Shown: positions 56,987 through 62,042 of the stretch, piece after piece | Position numbering within the stretch: the first letter of the stretch is position 1 | How the letters are laid out: each line of letters begins with the position of its first letter | NCBI GenBank assembly: GCA_030041495.1 | Contig: JASHNT010000038.1 | Coordinates: 1-64,000 of the forward strand | Reading direction: 5' to 3' | Length of the DNA: 64,000 bases | From: Bryobacteraceae bacterium | Lineage (GTDB): Bacteria > Acidobacteriota > Terriglobia > Bryobacterales > Bryobacteraceae | The notes under the pieces: model-generated | Told to the model about the DNA's origin: nothing | Database searches by the model: none | The model's input: only the letters and a program-made list of their open reading frames with translations | Made by a program: the position numbers and the translations under genes

Positions 56987-57032
56987 TCTGAATTCTTCCT
57001 GCTCCTTGCACTTTCAAGTTAGGCCAAACTTT

Positions 57033-57070
57033 GTCAACTCGCGGTCAAAACCGAGTCAGGATCGCGTCAA
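57033..57070 (-). promoter_or_regulatory. Four TTGAC-type direct repeats, 11-bp spaced (hsp20 promoter)
   Basis: Read on the minus strand, TTGAC at 57070, CTGAC at 57059, TTGAC at 57048 and TTGAC at 57037 are exactly 11 bp apart. A TAACTT hexamer begins 16 bases after the start of the last repeat. This fits an OmpR/PhoB-family response-regulator box. The first repeat overlaps the stop end of cfa. Confidence 0.7.
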
Positions 57071-58350
57071 AAATTCATAGGGAGCGGCGTGTCCGCTCCA
57101 TGGTGATTACCCGATCCGTCCTGGAGTTCCGCGCGCCAGGGCCGGGAGCTCCGCGGCCTTTTGCGGAGCAGCACCTGCACCGCGTCCGTCGTTCCGTTTT
57201 CAAAGCACACCGCCGACGCCGCCAGATACACCAGCCAGGTGCGCAGCGTTCTTTCGCTTACCAGGCAACGGCAGGCGTCCGCGTGCTGCCGGAGGCGCGC
57301 CACCCAAGCCCGGCACGTCAAGGCGTAATGCCGCCGGAAATCCTCCATCCGCTCGACTTCAAACCTCGCATGTTCCGCTTCCCGGACCACATCGGCCAAG
57401 TGCGCCAGTTCCCCGCCCGGAAACACGTTGCGCTGCAGAAACAGCGTCTCCGGACCGTCGGACACTCCCTCCGGGCGCACGATGCCGCGATTGAGAAATG
57501 TCCCGTCCTCTTCCAGCAGTTCGCGAATGCGCCCGAAATACTCCGCCAGATGCTTGCGGCCGACGTGCTCGAACATGCCCACGGAAACGATCTTGTCGAA
57601 CCGGCCGCGCACGTCGCGGTAATCCTTGAGCTCAATCGACACGCGGTCTTCGAGTTTTCTGCGCATCACCACCGCCGCGGCATACTCCTTCTGTGCCGCG
57701 CTCAACGTGCATCCGGAAGCGTTCACACCGAATTGTTCCGCCGCGTGGACCGCCAGCCCGCCCCATCCGCATCCGATGTCCAACAGCCGCTCTCCCGGCT
57801 GCAGCTTCAACGTCAGGCAAACCTGTTGCAGCTTTTCGAGTTGCGCCTCATCCAGAGTCCGGCGCGCGTCGCTAAAATCCGCCGCCGAATATTGCATCCG
57901 CTGATCCAGAAATTGCGCATAGAATTCGTTGGAACGGTCGTAATGAAACTGAATATCGCGGCGCTGAGTGTTACGCACATGCGCGTCGAGCCCCTCGTGG
58001 CCCAGATGGGCGAGGATCGAATGCCACAAGGACCGCAGCTTGGGGTGCTCCTGCCGGTCGAAATATTCAACCGCCGCCACCAGATCGCCTTGCACCTGGA
58101 AGCGGCCCTCGACAAACGCCACGGCCGCCGAGTAGGGATCCATCCCGCGGATCTCGGATGTGTCCGCGCCGGCCGGAAACACGATCGTGAAGCGGCGCTT
58201 CGGATCGGAGTAAAAGCTGCCCAGGGCAGCTTGGGAATGCGCGCCTTGCTTCTGGCTCCCGGTTCGCTCATCGCCGGTTCGCTCATGTATGGTCGAGCGC
58301 ATCTCACCACTCTCTTCGCGATTCGATTGTAAGTCCGCATGCAGCCCCAT
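57067..58350 (-). CDS. cfa: Cyclopropane-fatty-acyl-phospholipid synthase
   Basis: Uses SAM to convert unsaturated acyl chains of membrane phospholipids to cyclopropane forms, typically in acid or stationary stress. The 427-residue protein has the family core: IQFHYDRSNEFYAQFLDQRMQYS, SAM motif I LLDIGCGWGGLAVHAAEQFG, SAAQKEYA, and IVSVGMFEHVG with the catalytic-site Glu. The C-terminal segment RRHYALTCRAWVARL also fits. The start is ambiguous: ATG 58350 (GGGGA upstream) or ATG 58302. Divergent from the manC-like gene, sharing its operator region. Confidence 0.92.
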   Translation of the reverse strand: MGLHADLQSNREESGEMRSTIHERTGDERTGSQKQGAHSQAALGSFYSDPKRRFTIVFPAGADTSEIRGMDPYSAAVAFVEGRFQVQGDLVAAVEYFDRQEHPKLRSLWHSILAHLGHEGLDAHVRNTQRRDIQFHYDRSNEFYAQFLDQRMQYSAADFSDARRTLDEAQLEKLQQVCLTLKLQPGERLLDIGCGWGGLAVHAAEQFGVNASGCTLSAAQKEYAAAVVMRRKLEDRVSIELKDYRDVRGRFDKIVSVGMFEHVGRKHLAEYFGRIRELLEEDGTFLNRGIVRPEGVSDGPETLFLQRNVFPGGELAHLADVVREAEHARFEVERMEDFRRHYALTCRAWVARLRQHADACRCLVSERTLRTWLVYLAASAVCFENGTTDAVQVLLRKRPRSSRPWRAELQDGSGNHHGADTPLPMNF

Positions 58351-61259: not shown

Positions 61260-61981
61260 TGGACCACGGTCAGCGCATTCTGATCGTCGACGATGAGCCG
61301 GGAATCCGCCGCTTTCTGCATGCCTCGCTCACCGCGCAAGGATATGCGGTCAGCGAAGCCTCCAGCGGCGAGGAAGCTTTGCAAGCAGTGCCCGCCTACC
61401 GCCCGGATGTCATCCTGCTCGATTTGGGCCTTCCCGGCCTGGGCGGAACTGAGGTTACCAGTTGCCTGCGGGAGTGGACCCAGACTCCGATCATCATTCT
61501 CTCCGTGCAAGGCGAGGAGTCCGCGAAAATCGCGGCTCTGGACGCCGGCGCCGACGACTACCTCACCAAGCCCTTCGGAACCGGAGAACTCGAGGCGCGC
61601 ATCCGCGCGGCTTTGCGCCGCTCCGCCAAGTACGAAACCGAACCCGTGTTCGTGGCCGGCGAGCTTATGGTCGATCTCACGGAGCGCATCGTACGCATGC
61701 GCGGCAGCGACGTGCAGCTCACGCCCACCGAATTCAGCCTGCTCAAGGTCATGATCACTCATGTCAACCGGCTCTTGACCCATCGCCAACTGGTGCGCGA
61801 GGTGTGGGGTGGGGCGCATTACGAAGATGTCCAGCACTTGCTGCGCGTTAATATCAGCAATCTGCGTCGGAAGTTGGAAGAAGAGCCGGCCCGCCCGCAC
61901 TATATCGTCACTGAGCCCGGCGTAGGCTACCGCCTGCGCGCCGACCAAGCCCAGTCTGCCGCGCCGCCAGGTGGGGCTTGA
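61259..61981 (+). CDS. KdpE-like OmpR-family response regulator 1
   Basis: A 240-residue regulator with receiver (ILIVDDEPGIRRFLHASL, acceptor in VILLDLGLPGLGGTE, lysine in YLTKPFGTGELE) and a winged-helix DNA-binding domain (LTPTEFSLLKVMITHVNRLL, HLLRVNISNLRRKLEEEP, YIVTEPGVGYRLRA). Its start overlaps the kinase stop (TGATG), so the pair is translationally coupled. Being OmpR-type, it is the obvious candidate to bind the 11-bp spaced TTGAC repeats seen nearby. Confidence 0.94.
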   Translation: MDHGQRILIVDDEPGIRRFLHASLTAQGYAVSEASSGEEALQAVPAYRPDVILLDLGLPGLGGTEVTSCLREWTQTPIIILSVQGEESAKIAALDAGADDYLTKPFGTGELEARIRAALRRSAKYETEPVFVAGELMVDLTERIVRMRGSDVQLTPTEFSLLKVMITHVNRLLTHRQLVREVWGGAHYEDVQHLLRVNISNLRRKLEEEPARPHYIVTEPGVGYRLRADQAQSAAPPGGA

Positions 61982-62042
61982 CGATTCCTTGACGCCTGCC
62001 AGCCATCTTTTGATGCTGCCTAGACGCCAGAATCGGTAAAAT
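61978..62042 (+). promoter_or_regulatory. TTGAC direct repeats (11-21-11 spacing) upstream of second kdpE-like gene
   Basis: TTGAC starts at 61978 and 61989, TTGAT at 62010 and TAGAC at 62021. A TAAAAT hexamer begins at 62037, again exactly 16 bases after the last repeat. The arrangement is the same as in the manC-like spacer. The first repeat overlaps the stop codon of regulator 1. With ATG at 62053, the transcript would be nearly leaderless. Confidence 0.7.

Follow-up and report, generated by a model that had tools for sequence, protein, structure and literature searches.

Activators of the OmpR/PhoB family, PhoB among them, bind direct repeats with an 11-bp pitch and thereby replace the −35 promoter element. 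In Escherichia coli, the family member KdpE controls a potassium pump, and the accessible part of the published work describes two half-sites for it, S1 and S2, and a need for R193, R200 and T215 in DNA binding (PMC3264566). A second described system, that of Deinococcus radiodurans, resembles the locus reported here in that the N-terminal half of KdpD is encoded apart from the kinase and the regulator binds a T-rich stretch, but differs in that the kdp operon is still the target of its regulator (PMC5716572, available portion). Here we describe a Bryobacteraceae locus in which three arrays of KdpE-like half-sites, two of them in the E. coli register, precede genes other than those of the potassium pump.

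The window analysed comprises 64,000 nt of Bryobacteraceae bacterium (GCA_030041495.1, contig JASHNT010000038.1, positions 1 to 64,000, forward strand) and encodes two KdpE-like response regulators, which we term RR1 (the first) and RR2 (the second). A first-pass annotation of this DNA had proposed three promoters with shared TTGAC repeats; we found all three arrays, each consisting of four TTGAC-type half-sites and a −10 hexamer, at the proposed places (57012–62042 encloses them all), with the proposed spacings and −10 register (Table 1). In every one, a TAA(A/C)(A/T)T hexamer begins exactly 16 bases past the start of the last repeat.

Table 1. Genes and promoter arrays of the locus, in window coordinates.
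Feature	Coordinates	Strand	Remarks
Acetate uptake transporter family gene	55641..56333	−	PF01184; NF038013 54.5 bits (cut-off 50)
hsp20, small heat-shock protein	56373..56915	−	PF00011, 76 bits; probable target
hsp20 promoter array	57016..57070	−	Half-sites 57070, 57059 (CTGAC), 57048, 57037; spacing 11-11-11; −10 TAACTT 57021–57016
CMAS-family gene (cyclopropane synthase type)	57067..58350	−	PF02353; not downstream of any array
manC-like promoter array	58395..58459	+	Half-sites 58395, 58406, 58427, 58438 (TTGAG); spacing 11-21-11; −10 TAAATT 58454–58459
manC-like nucleotidyltransferase	58517..59503	+	PF00483; probable target
KdpD-like histidine kinase	59643..61259	+	DUF4118, weak GAF, HisKA, HATPase
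RR1, KdpE-branch response regulator	61259..61981	+	Most likely binder of the arrays
RR2 promoter array	61978..62042	+	Half-sites 61978, 61989, 62010 (TTGAT), 62021 (TAGAC); spacing 11-21-11; −10 TAAAAT 62037–62042
RR2, second KdpE-branch response regulator	62053..62769	+	Probable target, possible second binder
nfo, endonuclease IV family	62788..63735	+	TIGR00587 235.6 bits (cut-off 129.65)

No further place with four such repeats, at up to two mismatches and in either spacing, occurs in the 64 kb besides these three. The annotation had counted recurrence of the motif with the same spacing across the genome as evidence against its proposal; in the whole assembly (6,122,048 bases in 144 contigs, 98% complete), the pattern including TAA at up to three mismatches gave two gapped (11-21-11) matches and one tandem (11-11-11) match, which are the three window arrays only, and control patterns read backward gave 0 gapped and 0 tandem matches. 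Composition alone leads to an expectation of 0.0016 matches per genome for one geometry at this threshold, and the three arrays are far beyond chance. A search of the same genome for a wider regulon, using a half-array followed by TAANNT at up to two mismatches, returned 13 matches, 5 of them in the window locus; the backward control gave 10, more than the remaining 8, so we claim no regulon outside the window locus.

The genes next to the arrays bear differently on the regulon that the annotation had drawn. The manC-like protein has TIGR01479 as its best NCBIfam match (110.8 bits, under the cut-off of 372.95) and lies about 140 bp before the kinase gene, whose stop codon shares bases with the RR1 start. 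The acetate transporter gene follows hsp20 by about 40 bp and nfo follows RR2 by about 20 bp, each on the same strand, so that by position both pairs are close enough for operons; the transporter gene and nfo would be targets only if each shares one operon with hsp20 and RR2, respectively. The proposed inclusion of acetate transport and DNA repair is thus a matter of position. The proposed link to cyclopropane lipids found no support: the CMAS-family gene has its stop codon at the hsp20 array and its start beyond the manC array, which points away, and therefore neither array is placed to drive it.

To describe the sites we used a matrix built from 22 sites outside E. coli. All of them had been chosen by TTGAC patterns of array spacing, so its consensus does not independently support the repeats. 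In 19 of these sites, TANNNT begins exactly 16 bases past the point where the last repeat starts, which agrees with the proposal of OmpR/PhoB-type direct-repeat operators with activator geometry. Because the patterns used for the family asked for TAA, though tolerating mismatches, selection accounts in part for the T and A; the hexamer's last T belonged to no family pattern and is present in all 14 family sites of the matrix. Eight matrix sites were found by a search without the hexamer, and these have TA in place in six cases and TANNNT in five. At one locus, L054, TATAAT lies one base later than the array register.

Applied to 10.5 kb of the E. coli K-12 kdp locus, the matrix ranked the kdpF promoter first, at 14.1 bits (next best, −2.9). 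The register there is TTTATA at 0, TTTACA at 11, TTTGCG at 32, TTTGCA at 43 and TACCCT at 59 (L193, minus strand from 8421), and its first two half-sites are S1 and S2 as given in the accessible part of the report (PMC3264566). The manC and RR2 arrays share this kdpFABC register, 0/11/32/43 with the −10 at 59, a likeness that the annotation had missed; the hsp20 array differs (11-11-11). Common to the E. coli operator and the arrays are the 11-bp half-site spacing, two leading T in each half-site and a distal pair within −72 to −50; the half-site sequence differs (TTTAYA there, TTGAC here), as does the target, which in E. coli is the potassium pump. The proximal pair is strong here but weak in E. 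coli (TTTGCG, TTTGCA), for which the portion of the report at hand describes only S1 and S2 (PMC3264566). In the accessible parts of the literature on KdpE binding sites, KdpE regulons and truncated KdpD we found neither a proximal pair nor TTGAC arrays, both of which may be in print elsewhere. Compared with PhoB-type operators, the half-site sequence of the arrays differs, and RR1 matches KdpE best.

How general the proximal pair is was examined in a sample of 274 gammaproteobacterial genomes, taken from the class around one Caballeronia genome; a kdpA match was present in 29. Five of 30 kdpA upstream stretches scored over 10 bits, mostly with TTTAC-type sites, and none did so on the opposite strand. 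When the proximal pair was shifted as a control, strong sites were found at three loci at shift 0 and at no more than one at any other shift; in the same control, the mean and median best scores of the gammaproteobacterial loci were higher at +3 than at 0. From these sequences, a proximal pair in E. coli, as well as its wider occurrence, appears likely rather than proved. The motif described for mycobacterial KdpE, in the part of the source available, is different (PMC5401905), and a rule of four half-sites is therefore not universal.

KdpE was the best NCBIfam match of RR1; against this model, RR1 and RR2 score 223.3 and 208.7 bits, which do not reach the cut-off of 325. R196, R203 and T218 of RR1 align with the three DNA-contact residues of E. 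coli KdpE named above, and RR2 keeps the same positions in the alignment. In a quick tree of 43 regulator rows with one distant outgroup, from which the kdp-linked regulators of the own genome had been left out, RR1 fell into a 25-row set (SH-aLRT 96) together with Geobacter and Chloroflexota KdpE, with E. coli KdpE in the neighbouring set; inner forks around RR1 had support of 80–93. The RR2 proteins formed one group (support 100) on the RR1 side of the tree, and five kdp-linked regulators from four RR1-bearing genomes (G180, G132, G063 and G130) formed a separate set (support 98) away from RR1. By sequence, RR1 and RR2 belong to the KdpE branch.

The window kinase had no KdpD (PF02702) or Usp domain in Pfam and a GAF match below its cut-off; its best NCBIfam match is KdpD, covering model positions 400–883 of 895. 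Elsewhere in the own genome (L179, 11337–13890), two adjacent genes encode PF02702 KdpD sensor domains with no kinase parts; their neighbours are a kdp operon and a gene for a short kinase with DUF4118. A kdp locus of G180 likewise has a separate sensor protein and a short kinase. Judging by these loci, a split sensor is usual in the family, and the window kinase could in principle use a sensor protein from elsewhere.

We then asked how the array is distributed among 237 genomes of the family (G numbers denote genomes and L numbers loci). The gapped pattern gave 20 matches in 10 genomes, against one for the backward control. An RR1 query found nine genomes with a protein of 62–100% identity, the next best being 55%; an earlier profile search, whose alignment was drawn from array genomes, had found the same nine. 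Of the 9 genomes with an RR1 ortholog (at least 62% identity), all 9 carry the gapped array, versus 1 of 228 others (Fisher p 1.8e-15, for relatives that are not independent, four of the nine being of one genus and two of another). The exception, G179, has a three-mismatch match inside an open reading frame. Outside the own genome, 14 of 18 array matches lie within 10 kb of RR1. Two more, in G130, are on a contig that ends inside manC; since the contig carrying RR1 begins inside manC, both arrays probably belong to the RR1 locus. The remaining G130 match (contig C549) and that of G179 are outside it. The annotation had named the local KdpD/KdpE-like proteins as the likely controllers, which gains support from the joint occurrence of array and RR1 gene in different genomes.

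The position of the array within these loci recurs as well. Six of the eight other RR1 genomes (G061, G062, G063, G065, G130 and G180) have it between RR1 and RR2, so that, counting the own genome, RR2 adjoins RR1 and an array in seven of nine. It follows RR1 with no adjacent RR2 in G122 and G132, where the next gene encodes an outer-membrane protein or has no Pfam match. The manC homolog of G130 is also preceded by an array, and G180 has one before a transaldolase-family gene. In G130, two arrays stand back to back (L040, 9775–10065), one facing manC and the other a stand-alone receiver gene (PF00072). In a g10 genome, the array after RR2 precedes a protein without a Pfam match and then a sortase-family gene (L035, 8019–9464).

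Related arrays were found beyond the family. Among the matches listed, 80 of 491 confirmed KdpE-like loci were scanned with five spacings and no hexamer, which gave 9 arrays in 7 loci at up to three mismatches (backward control 0) and 11 arrays versus 2 in the control at four. A pattern search covering the 36 genomes from which the first 36 loci came gave 13 matches in 8 genomes (control 1). A deltaproteobacterial locus (L058) has one array before a full-length kdpD and another before kdpA-kdpB-kdpC; in Geobacter, arrays precede a permease-family gene and kdpA (L186) or kdpD (L187); in Chloroflexota (L188, L189), they precede a chloride-channel-family gene and a P-type ATPase; and L048 has two arrays ahead of a second regulator. 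Sporomusa (L192) has weak sites (15–23 bits) before kdpA and kdpD. These KdpDE systems of Geobacter, the deltaproteobacterium and Chloroflexota share with the window TTGAC/TTGAT arrays of equal spacing, and KdpE in their array-bearing loci is 55–64% identical to RR1. They differ in what the arrays precede, namely kdpFABC, kdpD, a permease, a chloride-channel-family gene, a P-type ATPase or another regulator, and in the kinase, whose frame has about 890–930 codons in five of eight such loci (L048, L052, L056, L058 and L060) and is shorter in L047, L054 and L057.

Within the phylum of the window (396 genomes, up to two mismatches), there were 8 matches in 7 genomes, two of the matches being in the own genome, and 0 in the control. 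Of the six others, two lie before kdpA (L242, L246) and one before a KdpB-matching frame followed by kdpC and kdpD (L190); L247 looks like a simple repeat, and L241 and L244 have no kdp gene in the 3 kb examined. Arrays thus precede kdp genes in one deltaproteobacterium, in Geobacter and in three acidobacteria of other genomes. The overlap-filtered lists of open reading frames omit some true genes, such as kdpA of L185. The L190 frame (5939–9649, minus strand) has 1236 codons, of which 549–1230 match KdpB; a KdpA-KdpB fusion was considered and rejected, the first 548 codons having no match to the KdpA reference used.

The RR1 genomes themselves present a different picture at kdp. The own genome has two kdpA copies, both on other contigs than the window and without a matrix match over 8 bits in the surrounding 14 and 18 kb. 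Across five RR1 genomes, 0 of 8 kdpA copies has such a match nearby, two fragmentary copies having been left out. No kdpA match turned up in three RR1 genomes out of nine, two of these being incomplete or fragmented assemblies. The kdp loci that are present hold other regulators and, in two genomes examined for them, also separate KdpD-sensor proteins.

Because the arrays co-occur with RR1, precede kdp in other groups and share the E. coli register, and because RR1 falls into the KdpE branch, we consider it probable that they are KdpE-type operators, with RR1 the likely binder, here parted from control of the potassium pump. Against this reading, the hsp20 spacing recurs beside RR1 in no other genome, RR2 shares the contact positions, both regulators score below the KdpE cut-off, and most KdpE-like loci lack an array in the stretch scanned (7 of 80 have one at up to three mismatches, and 5 of 30 gammaproteobacterial kdpA upstream stretches score over 10 bits). 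That the repeats are a product of chance or have no regulatory role is barely credible: the tandem 11-11-11 form does also meet what look like simple repeats, and its backward control gave 2 matches in 237 genomes, but the arrays are unique in their genome, the backward controls gave 0 there and, for the gapped form, a single match across 237 genomes, and the arrays are conserved, with the −10 register kept, where the spacer sequence has changed.

Two further explanations accept the operators and assign them otherwise. RR2 might bind the arrays, alone or together with RR1, in a circuit of two regulators where RR2 is switched on by RR1 and acts in turn on hsp20 and manC. Its place in the KdpE branch, its three conserved contact positions and its frequent location beside RR1 and an array fit this arrangement, which we hold to be possible but doubtful, as KdpE loci L054 and L058 bear arrays with no second such regulator in the stretch examined; and because arrays adjoin RR1 in G122 and G132 without an adjacent RR2, RR1 is favoured on these comparisons as the binder. 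Alternatively, RR1 and its kinase could be an ordinary potassium-answering KdpDE pair that has added local targets and reaches kdp through weaker or different sites. The KdpE-branch placement, the arrays before kdp in other groups and the two kdpA copies in the own genome would suit such a pair; the kdpA copies without a nearby matrix match, the RR1 genomes without kdpA (where assembly quality leaves absence unproved in two of three), the other regulators in kdp loci and the separate sensor proteins speak against it, and we judge it unlikely.

Taking RR1 as the binder of KdpE-type operators, we infer the following course of binding and activation. On the simplest reading, RR1, once phosphorylated, would occupy an array as two head-to-tail dimers, each on one pair of 11-bp-spaced half-sites and both on about one face of the helix. 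If the −10 element begins near −12, the starts of the half-sites would fall near −71, −60, −39 and −28, so that the proximal dimer would cover the −35 region, end just upstream of the −10 and take the place of the −35 element. This would bring RNA polymerase to hsp20 (and perhaps the acetate transporter gene), to manC (and perhaps kdpD and RR1) and to RR2 (and perhaps nfo). In the hsp20 array, the gap between the pairs is shorter by 10 bp, about one turn, which would keep the face. Because arrays precede both RR2 and the manC-kdpD-RR1 stretch, the circuit would feed back on itself, in line with the autoregulation that the annotation had suggested. The kinase without a KdpD/Usp sensor part and the examined kdpA stretches without an array would fit a regulator parted from control of the potassium pump. 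From the targets, our guess is that the signal is heat, acid, osmotic or envelope stress.

The operator register is a known one; the targets and the kinase have changed. We give an even chance to the broader view that the KdpE operator is widely one of four half-sites (0/11/32/43, −10 at 59), from Gammaproteobacteria to Acidobacteriota and Chloroflexota, and that one acidobacterial lineage reuses it, off potassium transport, in a small self-feeding stress/envelope circuit. Such a sequence rule for KdpE control would be readable in genomes of several phyla and would predict that KdpE has a further, proximal site at the best-studied potassium promoter of E. coli. The locus would also offer a case of a response regulator that keeps its operator while changing its targets, with both states visible among relatives.

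The tandem form deserves separate mention. In the 237 family genomes it gave 17 matches in 6 genomes (backward control 2), most of which look by eye like simple tandem repeats (G025, G026, G094 and G151), and the 11-11-11 spacing beside RR1 was seen among these genomes in the window only. In G026, which has no RR1 ortholog, two loci on different contigs (L208, L209) have similar sites of 11-bp pitch with a near-identical end, possibly a related operator. Finally, the RR2 start codon lies only 10 bases past the −10 hexamer (window 62037–62056), and the corresponding distance in L035 is 6 bases (10234–10220, minus strand); the RR2 message would thus be almost leaderless in two genera.
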